A stretch of 64,000 bases of DNA from Advenella mandrilli. GTDB lineage: Bacteria; Pseudomonadota; Gammaproteobacteria; Burkholderiales; Burkholderiaceae_B. Location of the stretch: assembly GCF_016595155.1 (NCBI RefSeq), contig NZ_JAENGP010000001.1, positions 248,001-312,000 on the forward strand, in the 5' to 3' direction. The position numbers were made by a program, and so were the translations under genes. The notes beneath the pieces were generated by a model. That model worked only from the letters and a program-made list of their open reading frames with translations. It did not search any database and was not told the origin of the DNA. How positions within the stretch are numbered: the first letter of the stretch is position 1; each line of letters starts with the position of its first letter. This document shows, one piece after another, positions 4,531 through 11,836 of this stretch.

Positions 4531-4701
4531 CACCGTTCGTTTGAACGGGGTGGCAGTGATTTCCCAAGGTGGTTTCCTCCGCTTTCAGGCGCTTCTCGTG
4601 CTCCTCGCTCTCAAGCTCTTCTCGTGTATCTTCGTTCCCATGCTCCCGCGTGGAAATGCCTTGCTGTGAGCCTATTGCCAGACCCATTCAAACGAACGGT
4701 G
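4531..4701. repeat. Non-coding repeat relic with 15-bp terminal inverted repeats
   Basis: CACCGTTCGTTTGAA at 4531-4545 is the exact reverse complement of 4687-4701. Similarity continues inward for a few bases (CGGGG against a strand reading TGGGT). Between them is 141 bp of C/T-rich sequence including TTCCCATGCTCCCGCGTGGAA near 4636, which resembles the widespread hairpin family built on TTCCCACGCT/GCGTGGGAA. No convincing coding sequence exists between 4461 and 4819. I read this as a MITE-like or palindromic-repeat relic; no target-site duplication is obvious. Confidence 0.55.
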
Positions 4702-4819
4702 ACAGATTACAGGCGTACTATTAGAATAGCGCCAATATTGAGTTGAACGAATGTGGCAGTTCACAGGCTTATCTTGCCTGCACATTCTCCTGATCAACCC
4801 TGTTGTCTGGAGCGTTTTT

Positions 4820-6565
4820 GTGTTGAAAATATGTAAACCGGTAGCCCTGTTAATGATGCTGACAGCGAGTGCTTATACGCTAGCCAATGAACGGGCCATC
4901 ATCGTGTTTGATGGCTCGGGTTCAATGTGGGGACAAATAGATGGCAAACCCAAGCATGAGATTGCCCAGCAGGCTTTACGCAACATGCTTGAAACCGTCC
5001 CTGATACGATGGAGCTGGGTTTAATGGCCTACGGCCATCGCGAAAAAGGCAGCTGCACCGATATTGAAATGCTGGTGCCGCCCGGCCAGGCCAATAAAAC
5101 GGCGGTATTGCAAGCCGTGCAAAATATGAAATTTCTTGGCAAAACCCCGTTGTCTGCGGCGGTTCAGCAGGCGGCAAATGCTTTACGCTATACCGAAGAC
5201 AAGGCAACCGTGATCTTGATTACCGATGGCGAAGAAACCTGTCAGGCCGATCCTTGTGCCCTGGGAACCGAACTTAAGCAAAGCGGGGTTGATTTCACGA
5301 CGCACGTGGTGGGATTCGGCCTGACCAGGCAGCAAGGAGAACAGGTTGCCTGTCTGGCGCACAATACAGGTGGACAATACTTTGAAGCCAGTAATGCGGC
5401 ACATTTAAGCAAGGCAATGAACGCCGCGCTTGCGGCGGTGCACACCGCACCGGTTGCCAACGTTGCACCACCAGCACCATTGCCAACACCAAGCTTGCCA
5501 TCGGCAACTGTCTCGGGACCCGAAGTGGCCAGGGCCGGAACGGTTATTGAGGTTACCTGGAGTGGACCGAACGATTCAGGTGATTACATTACCATTGTCA
5601 CGCCCGATGCCAAGGATTCAGAATATGGCGTATATCAACGTACTGCCAGCGGAGAGGTTTTACGGTTACAGGCACCCGATGCCTTGGGGGCGCATGAAAT
5701 ACGTTATGTTCAGAATAAAGACCGCAAGGTGCTGGCCAGGCAAACGATTGAATTGATGTCTGTAGAGGCGACGGTTTCTGGCCCTGAAAGTATTGGGGCA
5801 GGAGGAACCATAGAGGTGCAATGGACGGGGCCCGATAGCCCGGGTGATTACATCACAGTGGTTGAGGCTGGCGCGCCCGATAAAGAATACAATCATTACG
5901 CCCGCACGAGCGCCCGAAACCCCGTCAGCCTTTTGGTGCCTGATGGTTTGGGGAACTATGAAATCCGTTATGTTTTGAACAGTTCCAAACGTGTGCTGGC
6001 ATCGCAACCCCTAACCATCACGCCGGTTTTGGCGCGACTGGAACTGATGAATACTGCTGTGCCGGGCGGCAAAGTAACTGTGGCATGGACAGGGCCGGAT
6101 AATAAGTCAGACTACGTGACCGTTGTTCCTAAAGGCGCCCCCGCCAATAAATACCTTGATTATGCACGCACCTCTTCAGGTTCACCGCTTGTGCTCAAAA
6201 TGCCGGCCGAGGTGGGTGAGTATGAATTGCGTTATGTGCTGGACAGCTCAAAACGGGTATTGGCCAGTTTGCCGGTTACCCTGGCAGAAACGGCTGGCAG
6301 TATTACTGCACCCGCTTCCGTGGCAGCCGGTTCTGTTATTGAAGTCACCTGGAGCGGCCCGGGAAACCGGCAGGATTTCATCGAGGTCGTACCCATGGAT
6401 GCCACACCCGACACTGCACCGCTTGCCGCAACACGTGTCAGCCAGGGTAGTCCCTTGTCGGTACATGCTCCGGCAATTCCAGGTGTTTACCAGGTCAGGT
6501 ATATGATGCGTGATACCAAAGAGGTTTTGACCAGTACGCAGGTAGAAGTCAAGCCAAACCCGTAA
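4820..6565 (+). CDS. Secreted VWA-domain protein with four Ig-like repeats
   Basis: The protein is about 581 residues. I prefer GTG 4820, preceded by a TGGAG ribosome site, because it gives a normal signal peptide (VLKICKPVALLMML, cleaved after TLA). ATG 4751 would add 23 residues. A von Willebrand factor A domain follows at once, with a full MIDAS metal site: DGSGSMWG, the Thr of KTPLSAA and the Asp of TDGEETC. After a Pro/Ala linker come four repeats of about 88 residues (DNA about 5503-6565). Each has a W-[ST]-GP motif, a D-[YF]-[IV] strand (YITVV, YVTVV, FIEVV) and a Y-[EQ]-[IVL]-RY strand. It probably binds a ligand or partner through a divalent metal in the periplasm or on the surface. 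Function unknown. Confidence 0.85.
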   Translation: MLKICKPVALLMMLTASAYTLANERAIIVFDGSGSMWGQIDGKPKHEIAQQALRNMLETVPDTMELGLMAYGHREKGSCTDIEMLVPPGQANKTAVLQAVQNMKFLGKTPLSAAVQQAANALRYTEDKATVILITDGEETCQADPCALGTELKQSGVDFTTHVVGFGLTRQQGEQVACLAHNTGGQYFEASNAAHLSKAMNAALAAVHTAPVANVAPPAPLPTPSLPSATVSGPEVARAGTVIEVTWSGPNDSGDYITIVTPDAKDSEYGVYQRTASGEVLRLQAPDALGAHEIRYVQNKDRKVLARQTIELMSVEATVSGPESIGAGGTIEVQWTGPDSPGDYITVVEAGAPDKEYNHYARTSARNPVSLLVPDGLGNYEIRYVLNSSKRVLASQPLTITPVLARLELMNTAVPGGKVTVAWTGPDNKSDYVTVVPKGAPANKYLDYARTSSGSPLVLKMPAEVGEYELRYVLDSSKRVLASLPVTLAETAGSITAPASVAAGSVIEVTWSGPGNRQDFIEVVPMDATPDTAPLAATRVSQGSPLSVHAPAIPGVYQVRYMMRDTKEVLTSTQVEVKPNP

Positions 6566-6714: not shown

Positions 6715-7275
6715 ATGCAAGGTACTAGGGGACAGATTCGGCAATGGGTTCCAATATCGGTCTGGTTGCCGCTTATCATCGTATCAGGCCTCATGCAGCA
6801 AGTCCGGGCTTCTGATACGGTCAACATGAAATCGGCCAGCCTGCCTCTGCCATTCCAAGAGGTGCTTCTGGTGGTGGATGGGGCGATTAATCGTGCAAAT
6901 GTTTTGGGTCAGGCACATCTGGATATCGGGATTCTCCAGGGCTTGCCAAGCCATCGCTTGAGGACAACAACCGCGGTGACTGATGGCGTCAGGCAGTTTG
7001 ACGGTTTTCTAGTGCGCGATTTATTGAGTCTGTTGCAGGCGGAAGGCAAGGTGGTAACCGCCCTGGCACTTAACAACTATAGTGTCGACATCCCCATGAT
7101 TGACTTTCATGAGTATGACGTTTTACTGGCAACCCATATGGATGGGGAACGCTTGCTTTCCTCTGGCAAAGGGCCGTTCTGGATTGTTTACCCGCGTGAT
7201 GATTGGCGGCAATTGCAAGATATTCGCTATGACTATCGATGGGTTTGGCAGTTGCATCGCCTGACCGTGAAATGA
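6715..7275 (+). CDS. Molybdopterin-fold protein without the cofactor cysteine
   Basis: The 186-residue product starts with a signal peptide (hydrophobic stretch WLPLIIVSGLM, likely cleavage after RAS). The rest resembles the small oxidoreductase molybdopterin-binding domain family: VRDLL, NNYSVDIPMIDF, a long loop GKGPFWIVYPRDDW and the terminal YDYRWVWQL. The protein contains no cysteine, so it cannot bind molybdenum as sulfite oxidases do. From its position, 12 bases before a histidine kinase whose region between membrane segments should be periplasmic, I infer a sensory partner rather than an enzyme. Paralogues beside histidine kinases are familiar in proteobacteria. Confidence 0.75.
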   Translation: MQGTRGQIRQWVPISVWLPLIIVSGLMQQVRASDTVNMKSASLPLPFQEVLLVVDGAINRANVLGQAHLDIGILQGLPSHRLRTTTAVTDGVRQFDGFLVRDLLSLLQAEGKVVTALALNNYSVDIPMIDFHEYDVLLATHMDGERLLSSGKGPFWIVYPRDDWRQLQDIRYDYRWVWQLHRLTVK

Positions 7276-7287
7276 TCTGGTGACGGC

Positions 7288-8703
7288 ATGGGCTTTGTGC
7301 GCTCCAGAGTGCTGGGTTATGTGCTTCCGATACTGGCGATTGTTGTCTTGACGGTTTTGTTGACCGTTACGCTGTTTCGTCTGGCCGACATTCAGCGGGC
7401 TATTCGCAATAATGTGAATGACAACATGGTATGGGTCATATACCAGACTCATATCGAAAGCCTGATGCTGGCTGATGCGGTTCAACATCGTCTTGTGGAC
7501 CCGGAATCCGCCCATGATATTACGCATCGCTATCAGATGTTTTTAAGCCGTATTAGTGTGCTTAATGATGGCCCGCAGAAAAGGGCGTTGCAAGCGATAG
7601 GCATGGCGGACATGATTGCCGGGCAGGCAGAAACAGTCCTGCGTCTGGGCAACCGGATCGGTACTGCCCGGGCAGGGCAGACGGATTATGAGCACTTGCG
7701 TAGTGCATTGAATGAACTCAATGCCTTATTGTTTAATGCTTCAAATATGGCCATGGTGGCCCAGTGGGAAGAGGCCGGGGCCCGGATTGATACTTACCGC
7801 AATGCGGTATTGGCCATTTTTTTTCTGATGATTGGCATCTGGGGCGGTAGCGCATTCATATCCATACAGTTGCTGCTGGCACTGAAAAAAACCAGGGATA
7901 ATGAACGTAGCAGGCAGCGCGAGATTGAGTTGCGCAAGCAGCTTGAAAACGAACGTAAAATCAGTGAGTTGTATCGCAGTTTTGGGTCTATGGTCTCACA
8001 TCAGTTCCGTACGCCCCTGGCGATTATTGATGCCACCATGCAAAGATTGATTCGTGCCGGTAACCGGATGGACACCGACGAGGTCAAACGGCGGGCAGCC
8101 AAGGCCAGGGAAGCGGTGCAGCGGCTTACTTACCTGATTGAAAATATTTTGCAGGCCGATCGTTTCATGGAGCAGCTTGAAGTAACCATAAGATCATGCA
8201 ATCTGGCTCATCTGGCACAACAGGCAGTGGCCGAGCAAAAACTGCTTGCGTCAGCTCGGGAAATACAGTTTCTGGATGAAACCGGCGGTGCGTCGACAGT
8301 CGCCTGCGATCCGGTATTAACCATCCAGATTATTGGTAACCTGCTGTCCAATGCCATCAAATACTCCAATGATCCCATGCCAGTGTCGGTACGCGTTTAT
8401 CGTGAAGCAGGGTGGGTATGCTGTGCGGTGCGCGATTATGGACGAGGCATCTCGAAGGATGACCTGCCGCATGTTTTCAAGCGTTATTTCAGGGCCCGGA
8501 CGGCGACAGATGTCGTTGGGACAGGCATTGGGCTTCATATTGCGAGCGAGTTGGCATCGTTGCAACAGGGTAAAGTTTATGCCAGTTCCGAGCCAGGGGA
8601 AGGATCGATCTTTATCTTATGTTTTCTGGGCAACCATGAAGGTGAGCAGGTGGTTAACATGGTACGAAGTGAACGAATGTCTGACAAGGAGAACGGGTCA
8701 TGA
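7288..8703 (+). CDS. Membrane sensor histidine kinase
   Basis: A 471-residue inner-membrane kinase. A first membrane segment at about residues 8-30 and a second at about 172-195 enclose a periplasmic region of roughly 140 residues with no recognised sensor domain and no clear HAMP. A coiled-coil linker leads to the HisKA domain, with the H-box VSHQFRTPL and phospho-acceptor His 238. The HATPase_c domain has the N-box NLLSNAIKYS, G1 DYGRGIS and G2 GTGIGLHIA. It lies 12 bases after the molybdopterin-fold gene, and its stop overlaps the regulator start as ATGA, so the two are probably translationally coupled. The signal is unknown. Confidence 0.92.
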   Translation: MGFVRSRVLGYVLPILAIVVLTVLLTVTLFRLADIQRAIRNNVNDNMVWVIYQTHIESLMLADAVQHRLVDPESAHDITHRYQMFLSRISVLNDGPQKRALQAIGMADMIAGQAETVLRLGNRIGTARAGQTDYEHLRSALNELNALLFNASNMAMVAQWEEAGARIDTYRNAVLAIFFLMIGIWGGSAFISIQLLLALKKTRDNERSRQREIELRKQLENERKISELYRSFGSMVSHQFRTPLAIIDATMQRLIRAGNRMDTDEVKRRAAKAREAVQRLTYLIENILQADRFMEQLEVTIRSCNLAHLAQQAVAEQKLLASAREIQFLDETGGASTVACDPVLTIQIIGNLLSNAIKYSNDPMPVSVRVYREAGWVCCAVRDYGRGISKDDLPHVFKRYFRARTATDVVGTGIGLHIASELASLQQGKVYASSEPGEGSIFILCFLGNHEGEQVVNMVRSERMSDKENGS

Positions 8704-9773
8704 GAGAGACTGCCACCGGTGGCACGCAAGCAACGATTCTGTGGGTGGAAGATGAACCGGATTTGCGTGAGATATTATCCGATGAACTTGTGGGTGCCGG
8801 CTATAGGGTTGTGCAAGCGGTGCATGGTCAGGATGCCTTGCAGCGACTTAAAGACTGTCGTCCCGACTTGATCCTGTGTGATATTGCCATGCCCGTGATG
8901 GATGGCTACGCGCTGTTACGCGTGATTCGGGAAACCATGACCGATTTGGCGGATGTCCCTTTTGTCTTCCTGAGTGCCCAGGATGGTTCGGATCAGATTA
9001 CGCAAGGCAAATATGCCGGTGCCGATGATTATCTGGTTAAACCCGTGAATTTTGATTTGATGCTGGCGACGATTGCGGCACGCCTTCGGCAGGTTCAGCG
9101 TGTGCGCAACAAGCTGTCCGGTGATTCGGGCTGGATGGCAGAACTGGCTGGTGCCGGGCAGCAGCTTGATGGCCAGGTTTTTCATCGCCTGGCACGCATG
9201 TTTAATTTGATAACGGCAGGTGTGGTTCTTCTTGATCGTGAAGGCCGGACCCAGTTTGCCAATATTTCAGCGCAGCGCTTGATGTTTGATTGTGCCGATT
9301 CTGTCGCCCGGGGAGTATTCAGTGCTGAAGGAGTACAGGGTTTTGACGGTTTATTTTCTGTGATTCGGGCGGCCGTTGATGCCGGTTTGAATGGACGGGA
9401 ATATACCGAGTTCCTGTCTTTTCCCCGTTTGAATGGCCAGCGTGATTTGCTGGTGACCGTTTGTGCGCTTGACGGTGTGGGCAGCGAAGACGATGCTTGT
9501 GCAGCGGCATTATTTATTAGCGCAGGCGGTAATAATGAACCGGTGCCGGTCAAGGCGCTTGACGTCCTGTTCAAGTTAACCCCGACCGAGGCGCGGATTG
9601 CCTGGGCCTTCGCCCAGGGGTTGCGGCCTGATCAAATTGCTGAAGCTTTCGATATTTCCCTAACCACGGTGGCTTTTCATAAACGCAATATTTTTCAGAA
9701 AACAAATACCAACCGTCAGGCAGACCTGATTGCTTTGTTATTGACCCTGCCGGCGAGTGTTGCCCAAGAGTGA
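8700..9773 (+). CDS. Response regulator, REC plus LuxR-type DNA-binding domain
   Basis: A 357-residue cytoplasmic regulator paired with the preceding kinase. The receiver domain has acidic residues in WVEDEPDL, phospho-acceptor Asp 61 (LILCDIAMP) and Lys 114 (YLVKP). The middle segment, about residues 155-275, looks like a PAS-type fold (TAGVVLLDREGRTQFAN), unusual between a receiver and an output domain. The C-terminal 60 residues are a LuxR/GerE helix-turn-helix (LTPTEARIAWAFAQG, then TTVAFHKRNIFQKTN). Candidate targets are its own operon, the following membrane/periplasmic pair and norB, but no repeated binding site was identified. Confidence 0.92.
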   Translation: MRETATGGTQATILWVEDEPDLREILSDELVGAGYRVVQAVHGQDALQRLKDCRPDLILCDIAMPVMDGYALLRVIRETMTDLADVPFVFLSAQDGSDQITQGKYAGADDYLVKPVNFDLMLATIAARLRQVQRVRNKLSGDSGWMAELAGAGQQLDGQVFHRLARMFNLITAGVVLLDREGRTQFANISAQRLMFDCADSVARGVFSAEGVQGFDGLFSVIRAAVDAGLNGREYTEFLSFPRLNGQRDLLVTVCALDGVGSEDDACAAALFISAGGNNEPVPVKALDVLFKLTPTEARIAWAFAQGLRPDQIAEAFDISLTTVAFHKRNIFQKTNTNRQADLIALLLTLPASVAQE

Positions 9774-9887
9774 GCCGGGGCATCCCGTCTGTTAATACGG
9801 TTTCTTTCCAGTGAACTTTAGATACACTGCGTGATGGTGATTTAGTTGGCAGGGCCAATTGATAAAAACAGGTTAAGGAGAAAGTAT

Positions 9888-10886
9888 ATGTGGGATTTCA
9901 GTATTGGGCGATCCTTGACATTAATGATGCAAACCATGCCCTTCATTTTATTGCGCTGTGCGGTGTATTTTGGCATTACGCTGGCGTATATCCTGATAAC
10001 GGGCATAGGATCGGGCATTGGTTGGGGAATTGGCGGGCTGGGTGACGAGGGTTTTCAGGCAACGGCCGCGTTCTGGGGAGGAGCCATTGGTTTTGGCGTA
10101 ACGGCGGGAATTATGTATTTTCTTAGGGAATACATTCTGTACATGGTTAAGGCTGCCCATATCGCGGCAATGGTGCAGTTGCTTGACAGCAAGCCCATAC
10201 CGGGTGGCAAGTCGCAAATTGAGTACGCCGGCTCGGTGGTGAAAAGCCGTTACGCTCAAGCCAATGTGCTGTTCGTGATAGACCAGCTTGTCAAGGGTGT
10301 CATTACTGCCATTACAGGCTTGTTGCAAGGGCTGGGCAGTATTCTTCCCATCCCGGGCATGCAACAGGTGATGGGGGTGGTGCGCGTCTTTCTTCGGGTG
10401 TCGGTGGGTTTAATTGATGAAATCATACTTGCCTATGCCATCAAAACGGAAAGTGGCAATCCCTGGACGTCGGCACAAACGGCCCTGGTTTTGTACGCAC
10501 AGAATGCACCGGGAATGCTCAGGAATGCGGCTTGGCTTACCGTGCTGATGTACGGGCTGTCGCTACTGGTGTTTCTGGTGTTGCTGGCACCGGCTGCCGC
10601 CTTGGTTTATTTCATGCCCGGCACCTGGTCGGCAGGTAGTGTTGTATTTGCCCTGCTGTTTGCCTGGTCGATTAAGGCTGCAGTCATTGAGCCTTTTGCC
10701 ATTGCATGCCTGTTGCAGTCTTATTTTAAAGCCATTGAGGGCCAAAGCCCGGACCCCACCTGGACATCCCGTCTGGAAGGGGTGTCCAGCAAGTTCGGCC
10801 AGTTGAAAGACAGGGCAGCCCGTTGGACTTCAGGTACGCCTGAGGCCCGGGATGTTTCTGTAGAAACCGGAGGTAGCCAGTCATGA
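9888..10886 (+). CDS. Polytopic membrane protein of unknown function
   Basis: A 332-residue protein that I cannot assign to a family. ATG 9888 has a strong AAGGAG site seven bases upstream, so the in-frame start at 9846 is rejected. I estimate about six membrane segments: two glycine-rich ones in the first 100 residues, some in the centre, and a pair near residues 220-290. A hydrophilic tail of about 45 residues follows. There are no transporter signatures or obvious catalytic residues. It is translationally coupled (ATGA overlap) to the next gene, an exported protein, so the two probably form an envelope complex. Confidence 0.75.
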   Translation: MWDFSIGRSLTLMMQTMPFILLRCAVYFGITLAYILITGIGSGIGWGIGGLGDEGFQATAAFWGGAIGFGVTAGIMYFLREYILYMVKAAHIAAMVQLLDSKPIPGGKSQIEYAGSVVKSRYAQANVLFVIDQLVKGVITAITGLLQGLGSILPIPGMQQVMGVVRVFLRVSVGLIDEIILAYAIKTESGNPWTSAQTALVLYAQNAPGMLRNAAWLTVLMYGLSLLVFLVLLAPAAALVYFMPGTWSAGSVVFALLFAWSIKAAVIEPFAIACLLQSYFKAIEGQSPDPTWTSRLEGVSSKFGQLKDRAARWTSGTPEARDVSVETGGSQS

Positions 10887-11836
10887 GTACACGTCTGATA
10901 CTTGGGGTGACAGGCCTGTTCTTGCTAGCAGGGCCAACGGCAGCCAGTCAGGTTTACCAGCAGGCATTGGCAGCGCTTGACGTTAACGCCCGGGAATTTG
11001 TCCAGGCTCAGGATTATGTCATTGTTGATCCCGATAGCTTAACCGGTGATCATTATTATTCAAAAAGAAATTTTCCTGGAGCGCCAAATGGGCGCGCGTC
11101 GATAAGTTTGCCAGATGCGGACCTGGATCCCATTACTCGCGCAATATTGCTGTTTGATGCTAAAGAAGCCAGCTTGCCGCATGCCCGCTATCGGGTTGCT
11201 TACAGCATGAATGCTTCTTCTGAGGTTCCGGAGGCACGGCAGGACTATGTGGAAGTCACACGCTATAACGTGGGGCCGGCACGTCGCAACGAGCTGTTGG
11301 CATTTGTGCCCGAAGCACAGGTGGCTGCGCCTGCGGAGTTTGGTGTTGGGCCGAATGTTAGTTGGCGATTTGTCATGGCGCCGGTCATGGGTACCAGGGC
11401 AGGTCTTTTGCATGCCAGCCGCAAAGAGATCCCTGATGCCCAGGCGCAGGCTGCTGATTGTCTGGGTGAGCCTTGTCTTGGCCTGGTTGATCCGGTAGGC
11501 CCTAACATGGATTGGATGCCGGTTCAGCAAGCCCCGCTGGCACCGCCGGCTTATGCCGGAAAAAGTGATGGAGATGTTGCCAGGCCGGCTCGGGTCATCG
11601 AAGAACTTTGGGCTAGCATGTCATCTGATGGCATGGATGACATGCCGTACACTAAAGATCAGCCGCCTTTTGTGTTGGTGGTTTCCTGGAATACTGCCGG
11701 TCAGGATGTTGCGGTTTCAGGCCTGGCCAGACAGTTCCCGGTGATGGATGATTCGGTGTCCGAAATTTGGACGCAGCGCTACGAAGTAGCACAAAGCCCC
11801 GCCAGTTTTTCAAGTCTTTATGTACCGCGTGACTGA
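10883..11836 (+). CDS. Exported protein coupled to the preceding membrane protein
   Basis: The 317-residue protein has a clean signal peptide (MSTRLILGVTGLFLLAGPTAAS). The mature part is soluble, acidic and rich in Pro and Ala. Two close cysteines (DCLGEPCLG, about residue 195) could form a disulfide in the periplasm. I recognise no family. It overlaps the preceding gene by four bases (ATGA) and ends the block before norB. The sequence gives no direct clue to function; coupling suggests it partners the polytopic protein. Confidence 0.75.
   Translation: MSTRLILGVTGLFLLAGPTAASQVYQQALAALDVNAREFVQAQDYVIVDPDSLTGDHYYSKRNFPGAPNGRASISLPDADLDPITRAILLFDAKEASLPHARYRVAYSMNASSEVPEARQDYVEVTRYNVGPARRNELLAFVPEAQVAAPAEFGVGPNVSWRFVMAPVMGTRAGLLHASRKEIPDAQAQAADCLGEPCLGLVDPVGPNMDWMPVQQAPLAPPAYAGKSDGDVARPARVIEELWASMSSDGMDDMPYTKDQPPFVLVVSWNTAGQDVAVSGLARQFPVMDDSVSEIWTQRYEVAQSPASFSSLYVPRD

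Follow-up and report, generated by a model that had tools for sequence, protein, structure and literature searches.

The 64,000-nucleotide stretch of Advenella mandrilli contig NZ_JAENGP010000001.1 analysed here (the window; the genome, labelled G000, is 3.28 Mb in size) raises the question of what is done together by a cysteine-free periplasmic protein of molybdopterin (Mo) fold, a sensor histidine kinase, a response regulator, a polytopic membrane protein and an exported protein that are encoded side by side. Our analysis indicates that the locus very probably encodes a PruR-DTB system for pterin signalling, together with a dedicated transcription factor and a local envelope regulon. All five open reading frames are present on the + strand in the window's list of frames, and the five same-direction genes of the initial annotation were recovered with matching coordinates and overlaps. 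The kinase gene begins 12 base pairs (bp) 3' of pruR, and ATGA overlaps join the kinase gene to the regulator gene and the gene of the 332-residue membrane protein to that of the 317-residue exported protein. The regulator gene and the 332-residue gene are separated by a gap of 114 bp with its own promoter-like element, so the block probably consists of more than one operon and is unlikely to be a single one.

The protein encoded first (6715..7275, + strand) has 186 amino acids, no cysteine and, by eye, a signal-like N terminus, published PruR proteins being about 170 amino acids long with a secretion signal. In a search of the PDB with a profile of 17 of its relatives, Pterin Binding Protein entries were matched with E-values of 3e-52 (7kos/7kou), 1e-48 (7rkb), 3e-31 (7kom) and 3e-29 (7kp2), compared with a best sequence-profile match to sulfite oxidases of 1e-3. 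According to the accessible part of a 2026 review by Rucker and colleagues (PMC13259868), 7KOS is the A. tumefaciens PruR and 7KP2 that of V. cholerae; PruR is described there as a SUOX-fold protein of the periplasm that lacks the Mo-ligating cysteine, prefers tetrahydromonapterin and acts via the periplasmic domain of DcpA, and pterin binding is tied to N102, Y104 and W160 of the A. tumefaciens protein. Residues N120, Y122 and W178 of the window protein are those pterin-site residues at identical spacing, and they are kept in 99, 102 and 102 of 103 aligned sequences, respectively. Judged by its sequence, the Mo-fold protein is a PruR-type periplasmic pterin-binding protein. Relatives of this type are also found on 632 plasmid records (623 of them at less than 60% identity), of which 397 are typed as conjugative and many come from Klebsiella and Escherichia; natural fusions of PruR to a kinase were absent from the open reading frames tested.

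A different reading, in which the Mo-fold protein still uses the molybdenum cofactor or works as an enzyme while the kinase responds to another signal, draws on its sole Pfam match (Oxidored_molyb, E 5.9e-5, slightly below the curated cut-off) and on public records in which homologues are named molybdopterin-dependent oxidoreductase. Two further observations tell against the pterin assignment: Val88 takes the place of the Trp of the PW motif present in the four solved PruRs, and no pteridine reductase scored above the family cut-off in the genome, with a model that was uninformative in that all controls also fell below it. We nevertheless regard the cofactor reading as unlikely, as the protein is far nearer to PruR than to the sulfite oxidases, none of the 103 aligned sequences has a cysteine at columns 86-97, and the neighbouring kinase bears the domain of a PruR partner. 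Across the 103 sequences the column of the PW-motif Trp holds V in 79 and W in 17, and the Val-type PruR may constitute a subclass with different ligand preferences; the sulfite oxidase alignment stops short of the Val88 column, a candidate for the position of the Mo-ligating Cys.

The second gene (7288..8703, +) encodes a DTB-type sensor histidine kinase of 471 amino acids with HisKA and HATPase_c domains (Pfam), in whose periplasmic domain W49-VIYQTHI-E57 forms a WX7E motif. Among 89 kinases adjoining PruR-type genes, the W column holds W in 87, and the E column holds Glu in 40 and Ala in its stead in 37. A periplasmic-domain profile was built from the kinases adjoining PruR-type genes in the loci of this study together with the window kinase, and 40 phylum-sample loci were fetched from 118 listed PruR places (each >80 bits); in these, the profile matched all five GGDEF-motif proteins encoded directly 3' of PruR (33.9-66.4 bits, E 6e-9 to 6e-19). 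On this profile evidence the window kinase carries a DcpA-type (PruR-partner) periplasmic domain. Since the PruR-type match is accompanied by a kinase domain common to the GGDEF partners of PruR, the sensor half is of a known kind: the PruR-type protein and the kinase are a PruR-DTB system as published, to judge from the accessible part of PMC13259868. The proposal in the initial annotation that the cysteine-less Mo-fold protein serves the kinase as a periplasmic sensor partner is therefore supported; its description of the sensor as unassigned is not, the PruR-DTB type having already been published there.

The third gene (8700..9773, +) encodes a response regulator of 357 amino acids with the architecture REC-(PAS)-LuxR/GerE and a phosphoacceptor Asp61 in an LCDIAMP motif. 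Of the three domains previously assigned to it, REC and GerE were significant in Pfam and PAS_4 reached only E 0.1. How widely this regulator travels with the sensor was assessed in a scan of named genomes, in which the best 80 of at least 569 PruR-type relatives, i.e. the loci nearest the window, were taken at up to 20 kb each. By organism names these belong to alpha-, beta- and gammaproteobacteria. The kinase was adjacent in 73 and the regulator present in 69; the 332-residue family was represented in 37 loci, VWA matches reached at least 200 bits in 30 and the 317-residue family occurred in seven, and 45 loci held at least one of the 332-residue, VWA and 317-residue genes. Gene order and direction differ between loci, and the 332-residue gene is often divergent from pruR.

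A palindrome shared by these loci was first seen on reading the DNA 5' of 332-residue genes, and the candidate operator resembles CCCCGTTCAAAYGAACGGGG. In the window, operator 1 (4531..4550; 27.5 bits) is the best match in the 3.28 Mb genome, with one mismatch, and operator 2 (4682..4701, core 4684-4699; 22.5 bits) lies nearer the gene that both precede; these are the only places in the genome within two mismatches. That gene (4751..6565, +; start codon uncertain between 4751, 4820, 4823, 4853 and 4856) encodes an exported protein in which repeats follow a VWA domain (Pfam VWA_2, 1.2e-13) and is a predicted target. A -10-like TAGAAT (4722..4727, +) stands 22 bp past the core of operator 2; the promoter containing it matches sigma-70 at 10 of 12 positions with a -35 hexamer overlapping the operator, such matches being no commoner in the region than in shuffles. 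A degenerate operator (9784..9800, core 9785-9800, CCGT-N8-ACGG) lies 5' of the 332-residue gene, with a -10-like TACACT (9823..9828, +) again 22 bp past the core. It is the sole exact genome match to CCCGTYYRTTNNNACGG, a pattern derived partly from this very site. The same core and spacing also occur in L041, L042, L045, L054, L056, L070 and L090 (labels beginning with L and G denote our loci and genomes, respectively), the degenerate form being common to betaproteobacterial relatives and L090.

The spacing seen twice in the window recurs across loci: TAnnnT was found at offset 22 from the 16-bp core in 41 of 99 site-gene pairs, at offset 23 in eight and at every other offset from 0 to 38 in no more than four. 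Class II activators, such as LuxR-type proteins at the lux box, sit near -42. With the core-to-TAnnnT distance at 22 bp, the centre of the palindrome would fall at about this position. The G+C-rich, self-complementary sequence, one copy of which is rated a weak terminator-like stem, could also be read as an RNA hairpin (a terminator or attenuator) and no operator at all. This we consider extremely improbable in view of the fixed 22-bp distance to the downstream -10-like hexamer, which places the palindrome ahead of the transcript and not inside it.

Across loci, the operator was scored in several ways. With the consensus CCCCNTTCNNNNGAANGGGG (maximum score 14), a score of at least 11 was reached in 25 of 51 upstream regions of the 332-residue family, compared with 70 of 5100 shuffles, and in ten 332-type upstream regions from loci lacking the triplet of PruR, kinase and regulator the best score was 9 or lower. 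A general matrix built from 24 sites 5' of 332-residue genes gave, at 13 bits, 136 matches in 122 loci (2.07 Mb), with about 19 in shuffled loci; of these 136, 93 precede a module gene and 43 are otherwise placed. The per-gene test, run at a threshold of 16 bits with a matrix made solely from 332-family upstream regions (some being shared divergent intergenic regions), found sites 5' of 45 of 83 PruR-type genes (0/1660 shuffles) and of 26 of 45 genes of the 332-residue family (0/900 shuffles), and also 5' of three of 20 SH3-type genes, five of 83 regulator genes and none of 85 kinase genes; sites 5' of genes occur in three proteobacterial classes. By locus class at the same threshold, a site was present in 64 of 82 triplet loci (63/79 without duplicates), in none of 11 loci with the 332-residue family alone, in one of 40 other PruR loci and in three of 10 remaining loci. 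Loci of the culturable relatives Paracoccus, Halomonas and Roseovarius are among those carrying the operator. In ten other study genomes, 15 sites with at most one mismatch were found, 11 of them preceding a PruR-type or 332-residue gene (three of these look like copies of one G557 locus), two preceding other genes and two uninspected; counts at up to two mismatches exceeded the control in eight of the ten genomes, equalled it in one and fell below it in one (59 vs 37 in total). Further sites precede genes of exported-looking proteins, namely DUF3617 (L044, L047), DUF2799 (L052) and OmpA-family (L116) proteins.

Several of these numbers count against a palindrome-bound local regulon. The 9784 site scores just 4.5 bits on the general matrix, and CCCGTYYRTTNNNACGG with one mismatch has 16 genome matches compared with 34 for a control pattern. 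At 16 bits a site precedes only four of 40 VWA genes and two of 22 genes of the 317-residue family; these genes often lie behind a 332-residue gene, and the VWA rows take in weak VWA matches. At this threshold 18 of the 82 triplet loci are site-less and a site is present in four of 18 regulator-free PruR loci, and the figure of 64/82 is partly circular, as training sites were drawn from the class under test. In addition, the genome holding L161, one of the 11 site-less 332-only loci and a second copy, has its triplet on another contig, so that a trans site was possible at L161 and is missing. The freer tests are the per-gene upstream counts and eight annotated plasmid loci, which took no part in building the matrix but have relatives among the training loci. 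The best site scored 25-30 bits in each of the five that carry the triplet; the three with the 332-residue protein but another regulator gene had no site at 14 bits. A regulon extending genome-wide beyond the locus was considered and dropped, single-mismatch matches in G000 being no better than the control.

Which protein binds the palindrome is the next question. In G115, a genome of the same genus, genes for the VWA protein, the regulator, the 332- and 317-residue proteins and NorB follow one another in this order (L041, 9135-14266), with a palindromic element 5' of the 332-residue gene and a weaker copy 5' of the VWA gene; no PruR-type match was found genome-wide and no kinase match in the 19 kb fetched, making this locus a natural regulator-only variant. 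In four draft genomes, G093, G102, G122 and, with a weak score of 15.5 bits, G044, sites stand 5' of target genes while PruR and the regulator are encoded on a different contig, and action in trans is possible in these genomes. Because the site co-occurs with the regulator, G115 keeps both without the sensor and these four genomes have sites on other contigs, we infer that the palindrome is bound by the response regulator. If another regulator bound a real palindrome, the triplet and the envelope genes would be mere neighbours sharing that regulator; the sites in PruR loci devoid of our regulator fit this, as do the three plasmid loci in which the membrane protein is paired with another regulator gene, of helix-turn-helix or LuxR type. 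Those same three loci lack the palindrome, though, in contrast to the five triplet plasmid loci that have it, the palindrome is missing at all 11 stand-alone 332-residue genes, and G115 retains regulator and element despite having no PruR-type gene or kinase at the locus, so that we judge this explanation improbable. The three plasmid loci (L230, L232 and L233) are operons of the different regulator gene with 332-residue, VWA, SH3-type and c183 genes, with neither PruR nor kinase within the stretch, which indicates that the envelope set is not tied to a single regulator. In L044 (6279-10465) and L047 (6433-10555), a second kinase of the window type, without PruR, lies beside the palindrome-bearing DUF3617 gene and a 332/317 pair; the genomes concerned have a PruR-type gene and the regulator on another contig, the kinase being intact in G122 and matched only as a fragment in G102.

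The predicted targets downstream of the degenerate operator are less familiar. The 332-residue polytopic membrane protein (9888..10886, +; ATG start at 9888, with an alternative TTG at 9846 that would give 346 amino acids) and the 317-residue exported protein with a conserved C193-x4-C198 (10883..11836, +) had not been recognised, and indeed neither gave a significant match by sequence in Pfam, NCBIfam, PHROGs, PADLOC or PDB (best E >0.1). The structure predicted for the 332-residue protein suggests a CysZ/CTL-like fold; neither Pfam nor PDB profiles gave a CysZ or CTL (SLC44) sequence match, and it is not filed here as a member of either family. The 317-residue prediction (pLDDT, a model confidence score, of 51) was left out of the fold search. 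In L110 a domain related to the 317-residue protein is part of a 1102-residue protein with an SH3 domain, and this joining suggests that the domain is placed in the envelope. In Rhodobacteraceae the domain is found at the C terminus of much longer exported proteins (L110:4402-7764, with SH3, and L117:2-2902), and divergent 332-residue relatives occur in open frames of about 690 codons in L158 and L159, the latter with a long Pro/Ala-rich tail.

Whether this pair belongs with the kinase, as initially proposed, was borne out in part. Of 151 genomes sampled from the family to which the window's genome belongs, 21 had the PruR-type gene, 17 the 317-residue gene and 14 both (p 3e-12, uncorrected for ancestry), and the presence of the 332-residue family in 37 of the 80 named loci points the same way. 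Terminal genes standing apart from the kinase pair were met with as well: in 398 phylum-sample genomes the 332-residue family (called at E <1e-40, with four further matches near 1e-3 set aside) occurs in 12, of which eight lack a strong PruR match (one of the eight, G273, has a weak PruR-type match), and in two further genomes of the 12 the genes lie far apart, all of which speaks against a strict association. Together with L152 and L157, in which the 332-residue gene sits by eye among unrelated-looking genes, these genomes would suit a 332/317 module that is independent and here by chance. Set against this are the spread of the association over three classes among the named PruR loci, the operator common to 332-residue and PruR-type genes and the co-occurrence of the 317-residue and Mo-fold proteins, and we rate a chance arrangement as very unlikely. 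Of the two targets originally offered, the VWA gene or norB, the VWA gene stands as predicted and norB does not: no palindrome lies upstream of norB in the window, and norB is near one of 109 related loci (1/29 family loci and 0/80 named loci, five loci being in both sets), adjoining the block only in G115. At the start of the window, an ectoine hydroxylase gene occupies positions 80-817 (NCBIfam equivalog).

The mechanism that we propose for the PruR-DTB system with its own regulator is as follows. A reduced pterin (tetrahydromonapterin or a relative) would be bound in the periplasm by the PruR-type protein, and the complex would dock on the WX7E domain of the kinase and alter its activity; the phosphorylated regulator would then bind the palindrome near -42 and, as a class II activator, activate the VWA gene and the 332/317 operon, acting also on the pruR-kinase promoter in about half of the relatives (45/83). 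The gene set may in this way remodel the cell envelope according to the pterin redox state. More broadly, we think it rather likely that these loci represent a transcriptional branch of bacterial pterin signalling, made up of a Val-type PruR, a non-hybrid DTB kinase, a LuxR-type regulator and an operator found across three proteobacterial classes, driving an envelope machine around a CysZ/CTL-like membrane protein, an exported VWA protein and SH3-linked exported proteins.

On the sensing side these loci add a new branch to a published type of system, and the output half is new here; no description of the separate regulator, its operator or the envelope gene set was found in the searchable literature, in which the review was the one paper found to centre on this family, and a search of the main text of PMC13259868 gave none of the terms response regulator, regulon, operator and promoter. 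PruR-DTB systems are described in that part as kinases without stated outputs, and the operator, the -10 spacing and the gene set make one output testable. If the proposal is right, extracytoplasmic pterins would be linked to envelope genes, beyond cyclic di-GMP (c-di-GMP) alone. The finding also draws attention to a conserved family of membrane proteins with a predicted CTL/SLC44-like fold, the function of CTL/SLC44 proteins being itself disputed, according to the accessible part of PMC13160678.

Compared with the PruR-DTB systems in the accessible text of PMC13259868, the window shares a PruR-type protein encoded 5' of a kinase with a DcpA-type WX7E periplasmic domain, and differs in that its kinase lacks a C-terminal receiver and is accompanied by a REC-PAS-LuxR regulator as a protein of its own, by an operator and by a set of envelope genes. 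With the PruA-PruR-DcpA pathway of A. tumefaciens it has in common the periplasmic pterin protein family and the sensor domain, whereas the output there is c-di-GMP turnover and in the window would be transcription. The 332-residue protein has no detectable sequence relation to CysZ or to the CTL/SLC44 proteins (PNS1, CTL1), and its genetic setting differs from theirs. Finally, the palindrome of about 20 bp over the -35 position at a fixed distance from the -10 element resembles the arrangement of LuxR-type class II activators, but the window palindrome has a different sequence and the window regulator is a two-component receiver protein.

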